From assembly GCF_009363895.1 (NCBI RefSeq), contig NZ_CP045434.1, positions 2,312,501 to 2,376,500 of the forward strand: a stretch of 64,000 bases of DNA. Direction: 5' to 3'. The notes beneath the pieces were generated by a model. That model was not told where the DNA came from, did no database searches, and saw nothing but the letters and a program-made list of their open reading frames with translations. The translations under genes and the position numbers were made by a program. Shown piece by piece: positions 58,054-64,000 of this stretch (its first letter is position 1; the number at the start of each line of letters is the position of its first letter). This DNA comes from Sphingomonas ginsengisoli An et al. 2013 (GTDB lineage: Bacteria; Pseudomonadota; Alphaproteobacteria; Sphingomonadales; Sphingomonadaceae).

Positions 58054-58137
58054 CGTCATTGCGAGCATAGCGAAGCAATCCATAGCTCAGTCATGCGTCG
58101 ACGCGGCCTGGATTGCTTCGCTTCGCTCGCAATAACG
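58054..58137. repeat. Palindromic repeat (CGTCATTGCGAG type), copy 1
   Basis: The left arm CGTCATTGCGAGCATAGCG with AAGCAATCCA, and the right arm TGGATTGCTTCGCTTCGC with TCGCAATAACG, form a long hairpin between the convergent aroC and paaD genes. It could act as a shared terminator or RNA-stability element. Confidence 0.85.
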
Positions 58138-58145
58138 AAGAGGCG

Positions 58146-58583
58146 TCAGTGGCACTTGAAGCGGTCGAAGGGTTCGAGGCAGTCACGGCAGCGATACTGG
58201 CTCTTGCAGGGGGTCGAGCCGAAGCGGCTGATTTCCTCGACGTGATCTGAGCCGCATTGCGGGCAGGCGACCGCGCCCGAGGGCTCGGGCGGGGCGATGC
58301 CGTACTTCCGTAAGGCTTCGCGACCCTCGGGGGTGATCCACTCGGTGGTCCAGGGCGGGGCGATGGCGGTCTCGATCCGGACCGAGCGATAGCCAGCGGC
58401 GTCGAGCGCGGCGCGGATGCTCTGCTCGATCACCAGGGTGGCGGGGCAGCCCGAATAGGTCGGGGTGATGACGACGCGGTCGGCCGACACCTCGCGGACG
58501 ATGCCGAGGTCGACCACCGAGATGACCGGGATCTCGGGGTCGGGGACTTCGCGGAGGACGTCCCAGAGGTTGTCCGTCGTCAT
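58146..58583 (-). CDS. paaD: PaaD-like iron-sulfur/metal-sulfur protein (MIP18/DUF59 family)
   Basis: 145 residues. The DUF59 part opens LREVPDPEIPVISVVDLGIV and has ITPTYSGCPATLVIEQ with the conserved Cys. The C-terminal zinc-ribbon part has VACPQCGSDHVEEI and YRCRDCLEPFDRFKCH. This two-part layout is that of PaaD, which matures the phenylacetyl-CoA epoxygenase. The paaABCE genes are absent here, so it is separated from its normal partners. The only ATG at the right place (58583) lies in the arm of a palindromic repeat, with no Shine-Dalgarno before it. Confidence 0.85.
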   Translation of the reverse strand: MTTDNLWDVLREVPDPEIPVISVVDLGIVREVSADRVVITPTYSGCPATLVIEQSIRAALDAAGYRSVRIETAIAPPWTTEWITPEGREALRKYGIAPPEPSGAVACPQCGSDHVEEISRFGSTPCKSQYRCRDCLEPFDRFKCH

Positions 58584-58648
58584 TGCGAACCGCGGGTGAA
58601 GCAATCCATCGCCGCGATATGGATTGCTTCGCTCCGCTCGCAATGACG
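58578..58648. repeat. Palindromic repeat (CGTCATTGCGAG type), copy 2
   Basis: Arms CGTCATTGCGAAC and CTCGCAATGACG enclose GAAGCAATCCA / TGGATTGCTTC. It fills the gap between the thiolase and paaD, and its left edge supplies the paaD ATG. Confidence 0.85.
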
Positions 58649-58656
58649 CGGGACCA

Positions 58657-59859
58657 TCAGACCCGCTCGATCGCCATGGCAATGCCCTGGCCGACGCCGA
58701 TGCACATGGTGGCGAGGGCGTAGCGGCCGCCGGTGCGCTGGAGTTCCTCGGTGGCGGTGAGGGCGAGGCGGGCGCCGCTCATGCCGAGCGGATGGCCGAG
58801 CGCGATGGCGCCGCCGTTGGGGTTCACGCGGGGGTCGTCGTCGGCGATGTTGAGTTGGCGGAGGACCGCGAGGCCCTGCGCGGCGAAGGCTTCGTTCAAT
58901 TCGATCACGTCCATCTGGGCGAGGGTGAGGCCGAGGCGGGCGAGTAGCTTCTCGGTCGCCGGGGCGGGGCCGATGCCCATGATCCGCGGCGGCACGCCGG
59001 CGACCGCGGCGCCGAGCACGCGGGCGCGGGGGGTGAGGCCGTGGCGCTTCGCCATTTCCTCCGAGGCGACGATCAGCGCGGCGGCGCCGTCGTTGACGCC
59101 CGAGGCATTGCCCGCGGTGACGGTGCCGTCCTTGCGGACGATCGGCTTCAGCGCGGCGAGCTTGTCGAGGCCGGTGAGGCGGGGGTGCTCGTCCTTGTCG
59201 ACGGTGGTGACCTCGCCCTTGCGGCCGGGGATGTCGACCGCGACGATCTCGGCGGCGAGGCGGCCGTTGGCTTGCGCGACGGCGGCCTTCTCCTGGCTGC
59301 GCTGGGCGAAGGCGTCCTGGTCTTCGCGGCTGATCGAGAAGTCGTCGGCGACATTCTCCGCGGTGCTCGGCATCGTGTCGTCGCCATAGGCGTCGCGCAG
59401 CTTCGGGTTGACGAAGCGCCAGCCGATGGTGGTGTCGTAGATTTCGGCGTTGCGGTCGAACGCCGATTGCGCCTTGGGGAGGACGAAGGGCGCGCGGCTC
59501 ATGCTTTCGCTGCCGCCGGCGAGGATGAAGTCCTTGTCGCCACTCTTGATCGCGCGCGCCGCCATCGCGACGGCGTCGAGGCCCGAGCCGCACAGGCGAT
59601 TGAGGGTCACGCCCCCGCTCTGGTGGGGCAGGCCGGCGAGGAGGCCGGCCATGCGCGCGAGGTTGCGATTGTCCTCGCCCGCCTGGTTGGCGCAGCCGAG
59701 GATGATGTCGTCGAGTTGCTCCCAGTCGGCTTTTGCGTTGCGCTCCATCAGGGCGCGGACGGGGATGGCGGCGAGGTCGTCGGCGCGGACCGAGGACAGC
59801 GCGCCGGCATAGCGGCCGATAGGGGTACGGACGGCGTCGCAGATGAAGGCTTGGGTCAA
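58657..59859 (-). CDS. pcaF: Thiolase, 3-oxoadipyl-CoA type
   Basis: 400 residues. The acyl-enzyme Cys is in TLNRLCGSGLDAVAMAA, the His in NPNGGAIALGHPLGMSGAR, and the second Cys near ALATMCIGVGQG. The block AEIYDTTIGWRFVNP is characteristic of PaaJ/PcaF, the beta-ketoadipyl-CoA thiolases of aromatic degradation. It splits 3-oxoadipyl-CoA to succinyl- and acetyl-CoA. A general acetyl-CoA acyltransferase role is the alternative. It lies between hppD and paaD on the same strand. Confidence 0.85.
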   Translation of the reverse strand: MTQAFICDAVRTPIGRYAGALSSVRADDLAAIPVRALMERNAKADWEQLDDIILGCANQAGEDNRNLARMAGLLAGLPHQSGGVTLNRLCGSGLDAVAMAARAIKSGDKDFILAGGSESMSRAPFVLPKAQSAFDRNAEIYDTTIGWRFVNPKLRDAYGDDTMPSTAENVADDFSISREDQDAFAQRSQEKAAVAQANGRLAAEIVAVDIPGRKGEVTTVDKDEHPRLTGLDKLAALKPIVRKDGTVTAGNASGVNDGAAALIVASEEMAKRHGLTPRARVLGAAVAGVPPRIMGIGPAPATEKLLARLGLTLAQMDVIELNEAFAAQGLAVLRQLNIADDDPRVNPNGGAIALGHPLGMSGARLALTATEELQRTGGRYALATMCIGVGQGIAMAIERV

Positions 59860-59984: not shown

Positions 59985-61070
59985 CTATTCCGCCGAAATG
60001 ACGCCGCGCCGAATCTGATCCAGCTCGATCGACTCGAACAGCGCCTTGAAATTGCCTTCGCCGAAGCCCTCGTTCCCCTTGCGCTGGATGATCTCGTAGA
60101 AGATCGGGCCGATCACGTTCTGGGTGAAGATCTGGAGGAGCAGGCCCTGGCCTTCGGTCGGGGCGCCGTCGACGAGGATCTTGCGCTTCTTGAGCTCGTG
60201 CAGCGGTTCGCCGTGGTCCTTCACGCGCTCGTCGAGCAGGTCGTAGTAGGTGTCGATCGTGTCCTGGAAGGGGATGCCGCGTTCGGACAGGATGTCGACG
60301 GATGCGTAGATGTCGTCGCTGCCGAGCGCGATGTGCTGGATGCCTTCGCCTTTGTATTCGCGGAGGAATTCCTCGATCTGGCTCTTGTCGTCCTGGCTCT
60401 CGTTCAGCGGGATACGGATCTTGCCGCAGGGACTGGTCATCGCCTTGGAGAAGAGGCCGGTGACCTTCCCTTCGATGTCGAAGTAGCGGATCTCGCGGAA
60501 GTTGAAGAGGCGCTCGTAGAACTCCGCCCAGTGCGCCATGCGGCCGCGGTGGACGTTGTGGGTGAGGTGGTCGAGGTAGACGAGGTGGGCGTTGGCGGTG
60601 CGTTCGGTCGCTTGCCACTCGGGCTCGAAGGTGAAGCTGTCCTCATACCAGTTGCCGGCGGCGCCGTAGCGGTCGACGAGGTAGAGGCGCGAGCCGCCGA
60701 TGCCCTCGATCGCGGGGGCGCCGAGGCCGCCATGGCTGGCGTCGGTCGCGCCCAGTTCGAGCGCGCGGGCGTGGGCCTTGGCGGCGTCCTTGACGCGGAA
60801 GGCCATCGACACCGCCGAAGGGCCATGGTCGCGCGCGAAGTCGGCGGCGTGGCCCTCGGTCTCGGCGTTGATGAGGAAGTTGATGTCGCCCTGGCGGTGG
60901 AGGGTGATGTCGGCCGAGCGGTGGCGCGCGACGACCGGGAAGCCGAGCTTCGAGAACAGCGAGCGCAGCAGCTCGGGGTCGGGGGCGGCGAATTCGACGA
61001 ATTCGAAGCCGTCGGTGCCCATCGGGTTCTCGAGCCCGAGCGGCGACAGCTCGGCGGTGGCGGTGGCCAT
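59985..61070 (-). CDS. hppD: 4-hydroxyphenylpyruvate dioxygenase
   Basis: 361 residues of the vicinal-oxygen-chelate fold. Fe(II) ligands are the His in YLDHLTHNVHRGRM, the His in GEGIQHIALGSDD and the Glu in GPIFYEIIQRKGNEGFGEGN, with the C-terminal helix that shields the active site (ALFESIELDQIRRG). It turns 4-hydroxyphenylpyruvate, from tyrosine transamination, into homogentisate. It is divergent from phhB (87-bp gap), so the two may share a regulatory region. Confidence 0.97.
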   Translation of the reverse strand: MATATAELSPLGLENPMGTDGFEFVEFAAPDPELLRSLFSKLGFPVVARHRSADITLHRQGDINFLINAETEGHAADFARDHGPSAVSMAFRVKDAAKAHARALELGATDASHGGLGAPAIEGIGGSRLYLVDRYGAAGNWYEDSFTFEPEWQATERTANAHLVYLDHLTHNVHRGRMAHWAEFYERLFNFREIRYFDIEGKVTGLFSKAMTSPCGKIRIPLNESQDDKSQIEEFLREYKGEGIQHIALGSDDIYASVDILSERGIPFQDTIDTYYDLLDERVKDHGEPLHELKKRKILVDGAPTEGQGLLLQIFTQNVIGPIFYEIIQRKGNEGFGEGNFKALFESIELDQIRRGVISAE

Positions 61071-61157
61071 GATGATACTCCTCTTACCTGGCGCCGTCCC
61101 TGCTCCGCTTGACGCGGGCTTTCAAGCGCGCGCAAGGCCAGCGGGAGGAGACAGGCG

Positions 61158-61406
61158 GTGAACCAGGCGACGGGTTGGATCGAACGCGACGGGGCGTTGC
61201 ACCGCAGCTTCCGCTTCGCCGACTTCAGCGCGGCCTTCGCTTTCCTGACCCGGGTCGCGCTCCATGCCGAGAAGGTCGACCATCATCCCGAGTTCACGTC
61301 CGTGTGGAACCGGGTCGACTTCCGGCTAACCAGCCACGACGCCGGCGGGGTGACGGACCGCGACCGCGCGCTGGCGCAGGCGATCGACGACCTCGCCGCT
61401 CAGTAG
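61158..61406 (+). CDS. phhB: Pterin-4a-carbinolamine dehydratase
   Basis: 82 residues from a GTG. The family signature appears as [20 protein letters not shown] followed by [15 protein letters not shown], with the conserved His pair. It dehydrates the 4a-hydroxypterin produced by phenylalanine hydroxylase, regenerating the cofactor. phhA lies 0.8 kb downstream, with the thioesterase between. Its stop overlaps the small minus-strand gene. Confidence 0.93.
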
Positions 61407-61552
61407 GAGCCCGCGCCCTCGGCCTTGTTCTTGTTGTGGCCGATCACCGCGCCGACGATCCCGCCGATGATCGGTCCGACGATCGGCAGCGGGATGGCGA
61501 TCAGCGCGCCGACCGCGGCATATTTCGCGATCCGCTTGTTCTCGGGGGTCAT
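61400..61552 (-). CDS. 50-residue glycine-zipper membrane protein
   Basis: Translating the minus strand from the ATG at 61552 gives a protein beginning [20 protein letters not shown]. Two short hydrophobic stretches are joined by LPIVGPIIG and followed by [13 protein letters not shown], a G-x3-G glycine-zipper pattern typical of small membrane or lipoprotein-like oligomerising proteins. The stop overlaps the phhB stop. Codon use fits the genome. The function is unknown. Confidence 0.65.
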
Positions 61553-61612
61553 GGGCGAGCGCTCCGTTTCGTGCCACTAGCGCGGCAGGTTCATCGTTCA
61601 CGGAGACATGGG

Positions 61613-62047
61613 GTGGAGATCTGGCAGCGCAAGGATATCGACCTCGAGGCCGTGACGCGGATGGGCGCGGCGAGCATGCCGGGCCACCTCGGGATCGAAT
61701 TCACCCAGATGGGCGACAATTGGCTCGAGGCGCGGATGCCCGTCGACCGGCGCACGCACCAGCCGTTCGGGCGGCTGCACGGCGGTGCGTCGGTGGCGCT
61801 GGCCGAGACGGTTGCCTCGATGGCCGGCGCGCTGGCGGTCGACCCGGCCGAGAAGATCGTTGTCGGGCTGGAAATCAACGCCAACCACATCCGCGCCGCG
61901 CGCGAAGGGTGGGTGACCTGCCGCGCGACCAACGAGGCGCTCGGCCGGACGACTCAGGTGTGGACGATGCGGATCACCGACGACGCCGGCAAGCTGGTCT
62001 GCCTGTCGCGGATCACGCTGGCGGTGATTCCCATCCAGCAGGCCTGA
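61613..62047 (+). CDS. Hotdog-fold thioesterase (YdiI/EntH/PaaI-like)
   Basis: 144 residues from a GTG at 61613, with GGAG 7 nt upstream. FGRLHGGASVALAETVASMA contains the conserved catalytic region of the 4-hydroxybenzoyl-CoA thioesterase family, and VVGLEINANHIRAAREGWV is the typical middle strand. It hydrolyses an acyl- or aryl-CoA. Its place between phhB and phhA and the presence of paaD and pcaF nearby suggest an aromatic-CoA substrate (inference). Confidence 0.85.
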   Translation: MEIWQRKDIDLEAVTRMGAASMPGHLGIEFTQMGDNWLEARMPVDRRTHQPFGRLHGGASVALAETVASMAGALAVDPAEKIVVGLEINANHIRAAREGWVTCRATNEALGRTTQVWTMRITDDAGKLVCLSRITLAVIPIQQA

Positions 62048-62095
62048 ACGGGGCGGCCATTGCGCGTTCAGGCGCGGCGTGGCATTTGGCCCGTG

Positions 62096-62155
62096 ATGAT
62101 CCGCACGATCGCCCTTGCCGTTACTTATTATCCGCCCGCGGTGGAGGTCGGCTGA
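62096..62155 (+). CDS. Candidate leader peptide with adjacent Tyr codons upstream of phhA
   Basis: Nineteen codons (MIRTIALAVTYYPPAVEVG) ending at TGA 62153. Codons 11 and 12 are both TAT (62126-62131). The frame sits 49 bp after the thioesterase stop and is followed at once by competing hairpins and a terminator before phhA. That is the layout of the trp leader in this window. No strong Shine-Dalgarno is present (a GTG three bases upstream is in frame), so translation is not proven. Confidence 0.6.
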   Translation: MIRTIALAVTYYPPAVEVG

Positions 62156-62216
62156 CGCCTGTTCGTCACCGCCGCCCCACCGCACCCCGTCAGGCCCAGG
62201 CCCGGCGGGGTTTTTT
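62138..62216 (+). promoter_or_regulatory. Candidate tyrosine attenuator of phhA
   Basis: Terminator: CCCCGTC (62185-62191) pairs with GGCGGGG (62204-62210), one G-U pair, then six T (62211-62216). Alternative pairing: CTGAC (62152-62156) with GTCAG (62189-62193), which removes the terminator 5' arm. Sequestering pairing: GCGGTG (62138-62143) with CACCGC (62167-62172), beginning 7 nt after the Tyr codons. A ribosome stalled on the Tyr pair would cover the first segment and favour readthrough. Pairings were found by eye. Confidence 0.6.
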
Positions 62217-62239
62217 AATGCCCTTCAAAGGACAAGCCC

Positions 62240-63004
62240 ATGTTCAAGACCTTTACCGCCGACGATGCCAACACCCCCGCCGCGTGGCAGCGCCATGTCA
62301 TCGACCAGGGCTGGGCAGGGTTCACCGCCGACGATCACCAGGTGTGGGACACGCTCTATGCGCGGCAGGTCGAGTTGCTGCGCGGGCGGGTGGTGAGCGA
62401 GTTCTTCGACGGGCTGGCGCTGCTCGACCTCGGCGCGGGCGGGGTGCCCGAGCTGGGGCGGTTGAACGCGAAGCTGGCGCCGCTGACCGGGTGGCGCTGC
62501 GTCGCGGTGCCGGGGCTGGTGCCCGACGACGCCTTTTTCGCGATGCTTAGCGAGCGGGTGTTTCCGGTCGGCGACTTCATCCGCCGCCGCGACCAGCTCG
62601 ACTATCTCGAGGAGCCCGACTGCTTCCATGACATCTTCGGCCATGTGCCGATGCTGGCGCACCCCGGGATGGCGGACGCGATGCAACGCGCGGGCGAAAT
62701 GGGACAGGCGGCGATCGCGGCCGGGCGGGGCGAGTGGATCGCGCGGCTCTACTGGCACACGATCGAGTTCGGGCTGTGCCGCGAGGGGCTTGAGACGCGC
62801 ATCCTCGGCGCGGGGCTGGCGTCGAGCTTCGGCGAGGCGCGGCAGAGTCTCGAGGACGAGGGCATCGCGCGGCGGCGGTTCGACCTGACGGAGGCCACCG
62901 CCGCGCCTTACCGGCACGACGCGATGCAGCCGGCTTACTTCGTGGCCGACTCGCTGGAGGCGGTGATCGCGACGATCATGGGGGCGTCAGTCCCCGCGCG
63001 GTGA
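62240..63004 (+). CDS. phhA: Phenylalanine 4-hydroxylase (monomeric bacterial type)
   Basis: 254 residues, the size of bacterial PhhA without a regulatory domain. The Fe ligands are the two His in EPDCFHDIFGHVPMLAHP and the Glu in LYWHTIEFGLCRE. Pterin-contact region: VPGLVPDDAFF. It converts phenylalanine to tyrosine with tetrahydropterin. AAAGGA lies 8 nt before the ATG at 62240. The terminator at 62185-62216 immediately upstream points to attenuation. The 3' end overlaps the convergent hydrolase gene by 29 bp. Confidence 0.96.
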   Translation: MFKTFTADDANTPAAWQRHVIDQGWAGFTADDHQVWDTLYARQVELLRGRVVSEFFDGLALLDLGAGGVPELGRLNAKLAPLTGWRCVAVPGLVPDDAFFAMLSERVFPVGDFIRRRDQLDYLEEPDCFHDIFGHVPMLAHPGMADAMQRAGEMGQAAIAAGRGEWIARLYWHTIEFGLCREGLETRILGAGLASSFGEARQSLEDEGIARRRFDLTEATAAPYRHDAMQPAYFVADSLEAVIATIMGASVPAR

Positions 63005-63683
63005 GGAAGGCGTGAGTGGCGGCGACCACGGCGCGGGTGCCGCGGCTGCTGACCGCGAAGCCCATGTGGGTGCAGTCGAGCTCGACCGCTTCGTCGCGTT
63101 CCTCGGGCAGACCGTAGGCCGAGCGCGGGGCGACGATGCCGTCGCGGCGCGACCACAGGGCCAGCGTCGGCACCGGCGGCTTGGCGTGGTTGCGCTCGAT
63201 CGGCGGGGCGTCGACCTTGTGACGCGTCACCAGTTCGTACAGCCGCCAGACGTTGTTCCAGTGCGGGTCGCCGCTGAAGGGCGAGCCCAGCGTCACCACC
63301 GCCAGCGCGTCGGTCGGCACCTCGCGCGCCAGCTCGCGGGCGAAGACGCCGCCGAGGCTCCAGCCGACCAGCAGCACCGGCTCGCCCGCGCTGAACGCTT
63401 CGAACCGCTCGCGCAGGAGGCGGATGGTGTCGGCCTTGGCGCCGCTGTTGAGCCCCAGCTCCCACCCCGCGGTGCGCCAGCCGGCGTCGGCGAAGGCCTG
63501 GCGCAGCGCGGCAGTCGAGCGGTCGCTGGCGAGGAAGCCGGGGAGGACGAGGCACTTGGGGCCGCCCGCCGGACCGAGCGGGCCGACCGGCAGGAACGCT
63601 TTCCAGGCGCGGGGGACGAACGCCGCAATCTCCGCCACGCGCGCGGTGGCCGGGGGCGGGCGGGTGTCGTGATCTTCCGTCAT
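62976..63683 (-). CDS. Alpha/beta hydrolase
   Basis: 235 residues. The nucleophile elbow is LLVGWSLGGVFARE (Gly-x-Ser-x-Gly), preceded by VLPGFLASDRS as the oxyanion strand. VPTLALWSRRDGIVAP holds the acid-side Asp and DCTHMGF the catalytic His. No signal peptide. The substrate is unknown; the family resembles PGAP1/lipase-like hydrolases. I placed the start at the ATG at 63683, which belongs to the arm of the palindromic repeat at 63678-63751. A longer frame runs through the whole repeat. Confidence 0.8.
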   Translation of the reverse strand: MTEDHDTRPPPATARVAEIAAFVPRAWKAFLPVGPLGPAGGPKCLVLPGFLASDRSTAALRQAFADAGWRTAGWELGLNSGAKADTIRLLRERFEAFSAGEPVLLVGWSLGGVFARELAREVPTDALAVVTLGSPFSGDPHWNNVWRLYELVTRHKVDAPPIERNHAKPPVPTLALWSRRDGIVAPRSAYGLPEERDEAVELDCTHMGFAVSSRGTRAVVAATHAFLTARGLTPP

Positions 63684-63751
63684 TGCGAGCCGCAGGCGAA
63701 GCAATCCATCGGCGCGGCGGAATGGATTGCTTCGCTTCGCTCGCAATGACG
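63678..63751. repeat. Palindromic repeat (CGTCATTGCGAG type), copy 3
   Basis: Arms CGTCATTGCGAGCCGCAGG with CGAAGCAATCCA and TGGATTGCTTCGCTTCGC with TCGCAATGACG. It fills the gap between serS and the hydrolase gene and supplies the hydrolase ATG at its left edge. Confidence 0.85.
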
Positions 63752-63753
63752 AA

Positions 63754-64000
<247 letters not shown>

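Follow-up and report, generated by a model that had tools for sequence, protein, structure and literature searches.

A reading frame and terminator in front of phhA

The window, a 64,000-nt stretch of Sphingomonas ginsengisoli DNA, carries a phenylalanine 4-hydroxylase gene, phhA, that is preceded by a short reading frame (the leader) and an intrinsic terminator. The features of the locus and its neighbouring genes are:

59985..61070, minus strand: hppD, 4-hydroxyphenylpyruvate dioxygenase (tyrosine degradation), neighbour (PF14696, 171 bits)
61158..61406, plus strand: phhB, pterin-4a-carbinolamine dehydratase (cofactor recycling), neighbour (PF01329, 94 bits)
61613..62047, plus strand: 4HBT-type thioesterase, the neighbour directly before the leader (PF03061, 63 bits)
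62060..62088, plus strand: putative promoter; -35 TTGCGC at 62060-62065, 17-nt spacer, -10 CATTTG at 62083-62088, 7 nt to the ATG
62096..62155, plus strand: leader frame of 19 codons, MIRTIALAVTYYPPAVEVG; ATG at 62096, stop TGA at 62153-62155
62126..62131, plus strand: pair of neighbouring Tyr codons, TAT TAT, at positions -9 and -8 relative to the stop
62138..62144, plus strand: 5' strand of helix A, GCGGTGG (covariation test)
62177..62183, plus strand: 3' strand of helix A, CCACCGC, abutting the terminator (folding, covariation, isolated-duplex prediction)
62184..62216, plus strand: intrinsic terminator; GC-rich stem-loop at 62184-62211, U-run at 62211-62216 (sequence, folding, alignment A1)
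62227..62232, plus strand: ribosome-binding site of phhA, AAAGGA (sequence)
62240..63004, plus strand: phhA, phenylalanine 4-hydroxylase, ATG at 62240 (PF00351, 135 bits)

The 19-codon frame, the Tyr pair and the terminator ahead of the phhA ribosome-binding site had been described in a first-pass annotation of this DNA, and sequence and folding bear out all of them. The encoded PhhA resembles bacterial phenylalanine-4-hydroxylase structures in a search against solved enzymes (E 3e-61), and its scores with TIGR01267 (247.9 bits, cut-off 264.75) and NF008877 (244.8 bits, cut-off 247) fall below the cut-offs of these two models.

The region 62080-62250 folds with -69.7 kcal/mol (z = -3.15), and 2 of 200 shuffled sequences were equally stable. 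A pattern scan of the window listed neither this terminator nor a promoter before the leader; the terminator was maybe missed because its stem has an internal mismatch. The upstream hairpin runs from 62138 to 62183, directly up to the terminator stem, and both are present in the minimum-energy prediction. The first-pass description of the hairpins as mutually exclusive is thus not confirmed for the window, where they abut and coexist in predicted folds.

Elsewhere in the window, a PaaD-like protein (58146-58682; PF23451, PF01883) adjoins a thiolase and hppD. At 63690-63755, sequence of the type TTGCGAGC...AAGCAATCC occurs in inverted halves, and translations suggest similar pieces near 58100 and 58640; together these look like a dispersed repeat.

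Conservation of the leader in the genus

PhhA is encoded in 65 of the 71 genomes of the genus sample; leaving out G298, in which phhA lies at a contig edge, gave 64 genomes with 68 phhA upstream regions. A leader was called where an ATG frame of 8-45 codons that includes a Tyr codon is followed within at most 110 nt by a terminator pattern. This rule matches 64 of the 68 upstream regions (in G253_L128 another frame ranked first and the leader was then picked by name). A further leader, in G313, was recognised by eye and has the same architecture with an interrupted T-run, which brings the count to 65 of 68 regions and 63 of 64 genomes. Both copies in G274 and the second copy in G259 are the regions without one. 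As a control, the rule matched 4 of 4000 random 400-nt segments, all four being one site (19 of 4000 while the control pool still included the phhA leader of L006). The co-occurrence of leader and terminator before phhA is more than chance. Conservation of the frame and its Tyr codons, which the first-pass annotation had named as a check, is thus found in all but one of the examinable phhA-bearing genomes of the genus.

Among the 80 loci kept from named records, 18 are sphingomonads (L002-L019), including Sphingomonas rhizophila, S. arenae, S. edaphi and Sphingomicrobium lutaoense. A frame with at least two Tyr codons was flagged in 17 of these, and the eighteenth, from Sphingomicrobium lutaoense (L013, the same as G269), has a leader with a single Tyr. 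The leader set totals 69, the 65 of the genus and those of 4 genomes of two other genera, and comprises 66 distinct leader regions. Judged by these sequence comparisons, the feature is real and conserved. Alignment A1 has invariant or nearly invariant columns at the terminator.

Two genomes, G253 and G306, hold two phhA copies each (L128, L188, L136, L189), every copy with its own leader. CGCGCG directly after the leader stop is the A1 consensus and also occurs in g45 and g54; the window reads CGCCTG at 62156-62161, and other subclades differ as well.

Tyrosine codons and helix A

Counted from the stop, codon -8 is Tyr in 56 of the 69 leaders, codon -9 in 55 and codon -10 in 45. Two adjacent Tyr codons occur in 56 leaders and a single Tyr in 2, while a Sphingomicrobium-like subclade has longer leaders with dispersed Tyr codons. 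The residue is kept through exchange of TAT and TAC among leaders. Across positions -10 to -8 there are 139 TAT and 17 TAC codons, as against 5 TAT and 17 TAC in seven genes of the window; the leaders therefore prefer a codon that is rare in these genes.

Codons about three to five after the Tyr run can base-pair with sequence at the terminator foot to form helix A, and the two strands change together between leaders (GCGGTGG/CCACCGC, GAGGTTGG/CCAACCTC, GAGGCTGG/CCAGCCTC, CAGGTG/CACCTG, GCGATGG/CCATCGC). Native duplexes of 67 of the 69 leaders average -16.65 kcal/mol, compared with -13.96 kcal/mol (sd 0.31) after partners were exchanged, and none of 5000 permutations equalled the native value. 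With one representative per distinct 5' core (n = 22), which removes relatedness only partly, 6 of 5000 did. The covariation that the first-pass annotation had proposed to look for in the hairpins upstream of phhA is thus present in helix A. RNAalifold applied to A1 recovered the terminator only, and helix A is probably missing from that consensus because its register shifts between subclades.

The relation of helix A to the terminator takes two forms. In isolated-duplex predictions for 67 leaders, measured from the CCCG of the terminator arm, its 3' strand extends 3-6 nt into the arm in 43, whereas in the other 24, the window included, it falls 0-2 nt short of the CCCG; the 18-nt segments used for the prediction restrict the gap that could appear between helix and terminator. 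In the window helix A and the terminator stem are contiguous, with no base between them. The 5' strand of the best duplex starts 0-5 nt past the last Tyr codon in 43 of 67 leaders, so a ribosome on the last Tyr would partly cover helix A, which speaks against a clean geometry.

Folding with a stalled ribosome

We modelled the stalled ribosome by masking bases and folding 67 leaders at equilibrium. The mean probability of the terminator is 0.94 in the free RNA and 0.98 with the ribosome at the stop; for a stall within the last Tyr cluster it is 0.93 on the first Tyr and 0.96 on the last. At equilibrium, then, most of the 67 leaders show no general loss of the terminator on stalling. The probability does drop on stalling in G273, G258, G261 and G313, and at the first Tyr only in G044 and G297; G289 goes the opposite way (0.96 and 0.87 stalled, 0.77 at the stop). 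In folds of the transcript before the 3' arm is made, with the ribosome on the last Tyr, a mean of 4.5 arm bases are paired (1.7 of 11 in the window); some of these pairs are internal to the arm, as in G278. For the window, an alternative antiterminator drawn by eye, GGCTGACG with CGTCAGGCC, was rejected, its arm half being absent in G295, the closest relative of the window by PhhA identity.

A terminator that persists in almost every folded state, behind genes that run in the same direction, is also what a constitutive terminator of the upstream operon would look like, the small frame then having no regulatory role. We regard this as very unlikely. The terminator sits behind the leader, 23 nt from the phhA ATG, and the Tyr codons and helix A are conserved. 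The leader moreover stays with phhA while the upstream context changes: across L002-L019, phhB and phhA lie between about 0.2 and 2.9 kb apart, and phhB was not found in 2 of these 18 stretches (L004 and L005, one genome).

Tyrosine and phenylalanine metabolism and the distribution of the leader

A reading of PhhA as a maker of tyrosine, rather than only a degrader of phenylalanine, was implied by the first-pass annotation, which suggested a genome search for tyrA. The prediction holds: a profile search with PF02153 (TyrA) gave zero matches in the complete genome of the window, and of the 71 genus genomes 4 have TyrA above the cut-off (G262, G274, G305 and G259, where it is split in two), versus 218 of 249 genomes of a family sample in which 5 belong to the genus. 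TyrA matches below the cut-off occur in eight other genomes of the genus, and G262 and G274 have long TyrA-like reading frames. Given that no TyrA match was found in the genome of the window, PhhA is most likely the route to tyrosine from phenylalanine in this organism. PhhA makes Tyr from Phe in Dyella japonica, Legionella and Echinicola as well, and these differ from the present case in that no leader attenuator is mentioned in the part of the report drawn on here (PMC7311316). HppD, encoded in the window, and HmgA are both present, so PhhA may also feed degradation.

Matches to prephenate dehydratase (PF00800) and to the periplasmic-binding-protein type of cyclohexadienyl dehydratase (PF00497) were sought in the genome of the window and neither was found, the latter having been considered as a hidden route to Phe; chorismate mutase (PF01817) is present. 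The organism is either a Phe auxotroph or has an unrecognised dehydratase. PF00800 occurs in 238 of 249 family genomes versus 14 of 71 genus genomes (0 of 5 and 14 of 66). In G262, G296, G297, G313, G274 and G259, a prephenate dehydratase lies about 2.5-3.3 kb from a phhA, with one TGA inside the matched stretch in G313 and G274. Three genus genomes that are 99-100% complete (G272, G281, G284) have neither a PhhA match nor TyrA over the cut-off and are possible tyrosine auxotrophs; G272 has a TyrA match below the cut-off.

The covariance model R1 scored at least 48 bits in 9 of 249 family genomes, always before phhA; five are of the genus, two of g45 and two of g54. These genera are also the ones that supplied the sequences for R1, and in none of the nine genomes does TyrA exceed the cut-off. 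The next-best match scored 32.9 bits, and matches from about 33 bits down look like ordinary terminators; the search used stricter filters, which lose weak matches. Because the RNAalifold consensus contains the terminator only, R1 rests on sequence and terminator.

Conversely, lack of TyrA does not entail the leader. No TyrA match at all was found in 29 family genomes (nine of them deduced from the positives), and 27 of these have PhhA. Outside the genus, 70 phhA upstream regions were examined, 16 from TyrA-less genomes and 54 others. The leader is present in 4 of the 16 and absent in 12, and none was accepted among the 54. Five of the 54, all TyrA-bearing (G005, G041, G087, G179, G233), came up alongside the four accepted leaders under a loose rule (two Tyr, any start codon, T-run within at most 130 nt) and were judged by eye not to be leaders. 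Within the genus, leader and TyrA over the cut-off occur together in G262, in G305 (70% complete) and in G259, with its divided TyrA; because three genomes have both, the leader does not need the loss of TyrA.

Proposed attenuation of phhA

Leaders of the trp, his, phe, thr, ilv and leu operons are ribosome-mediated attenuators of amino acid operons. An attenuator is expected to combine a frame with codons cognate to the product of the regulated gene, an intrinsic terminator between frame and gene, and a regulated gene that makes the cognate amino acid. The Tyr run provides the first and sequence and folding the second, while the PhhA family assignment and the missing TyrA match point to the third. 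Such a leader should also have an alternative helix that shuts out the terminator, and its gene should be expressed more strongly when the amino acid or its charged tRNA is scarce; helix A is a candidate for that helix, as it covaries and in 43 of 67 isolated duplexes overlaps the terminator arm, but in most leaders the equilibrium folds do not switch. We consider it very probable that the leader works by ribosome-mediated transcription attenuation, with charged tRNA-Tyr as the signal and phhA, serving here in tyrosine biosynthesis, as the target. Comparison of sequences establishes the frame, its Tyr run with a near-constant spacing to the stop, helix A with its covariation, the terminator and the association with phhA; that a ribosome stalled for Tyr-tRNA turns phhA on is the most likely reading of them.

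Transcription would begin close to or at the leader ATG. With sufficient Tyr, the ribosome would reach the stop codon and cover the 5' strand of helix A, and the terminator would end transcription. With too little, it would stall early in the Tyr run with its front edge at about the start of helix A, which would then form and prevent termination, so that phhA would be transcribed. Given the sizes of ribosome footprints, a ribosome stalled early would leave helix A free in front of it, and one at the stop would sit on it. In most relatives, helix A could take bases of the terminator 5' arm, with which it overlaps. Where helix A ends at the terminator base, as in the window and a minority of relatives, it would have to act in another way; it might, for instance, keep the stem from closing inside the RNA exit channel. 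The direction of the response (Tyr shortage turning phhA on) is drawn from the overlap geometry in most relatives, from where helix A lies and from how leaders of this kind are known to work.

The abutting form could represent a second mode of antitermination. Here, in the window and about one third of the leaders, the duplex formed on stalling would lie 0-2 nt from the terminator base and block it sterically, taking none of its bases, and a single Tyr attenuator would exist in two evolutionary states, overlapping and abutting. The attenuator would be found where phhA appears to be the tyrosine route, mostly where no prephenate dehydratase is recognised, with Phe a nutrient and Tyr a product, as in animals. 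We offer this extension tentatively and think it doubtful as it stands.

The near-fixed distance of the Tyr run from the stop would also suit an arrest peptide, that is, a nascent peptide that senses free tyrosine and not charged tRNA-Tyr. Arrest peptides need fixed residues, and the rest of this peptide varies widely (endings VEVG, VGIG, VETG, AVFD, AGPI and VETR), so we hold such a sensor to be still more improbable than a constitutive terminator.

Relation to known leaders

Sensing of charged tRNA-Tyr would place the phhA leader with the amino acid operon attenuators, which it resembles in its short frame with a run of product codons, its terminator, its biosynthetic target and a candidate alternative helix starting at the codons after the run. 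It differs from them in its Tyr codons, in a target usually called catabolic, and in a helix A that often only abuts the terminator. We know of no ribosome-mediated attenuator with Tyr codons or on phhA. In keeping with the first-pass remark that no Tyr attenuator on phhA had been described, our literature search returned neither a Tyr-codon attenuator nor any on phhA among the matches listed. As far as that search goes, the Tyr codons, the phhA target and the abutting geometry are new, the kind of attenuator being already known. The leader is genomic evidence for the recruitment of a 'catabolic' hydroxylase to biosynthesis. Its more than 60 natural variants, of overlapping and abutting geometry, could serve to test which properties an antiterminator requires.

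Tyr T-box leaders of Gram-positive bacteria also respond to tRNA-Tyr charging before a gene, but there the RNA binds the tRNA directly and no leader peptide takes part. T-boxes are named as the RNA control for tyrosine (PMC1262725). A T-box, riboswitch or other known RNA family was considered for this locus and rejected: an Rfam search of 61000-63100 gave only two chance-level matches (E 2.9 and 4), both well below their cut-offs and neither a T-box.

The trpL attenuator of Sinorhizobium meliloti is likewise alphaproteobacterial, with Trp codons and trpE(G) in place of Tyr codons and phhA, and its RNA starts at the leader ATG (PMC7298713), as we infer for the phhA leader. Its products, rnTrpL and peTrpL, are reported to act in trans (PMC7298713), a precedent for a terminated phhA leader RNA or peptide that acts in trans besides or instead of attenuation in cis; there is no conserved peptide beyond the Tyr and helix-A codons, and we rank trans action as the least probable of the alternatives.

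A putative start at or near the leader ATG would agree with the promoter matches. A sigma-70-like site precedes the ATG, its -10 hexamer lying 6-10 nt before an ATG of the frame, with a mean best match of 7.05 of 12 versus 5.34 of 12 in base-shuffled sequence over the 69 leaders, the -10 hexamer having been sought only 5-10 nt before such an ATG; in the window the site scores a weak 5 of 12. Only 23 nt separate the U-run from phhA, which leaves little space for a promoter downstream of the terminator. Just behind the -35, at 62060-62075 and equivalent positions, a CGTTCA-like stretch recurs in many leaders of the genus and is perhaps an operator.
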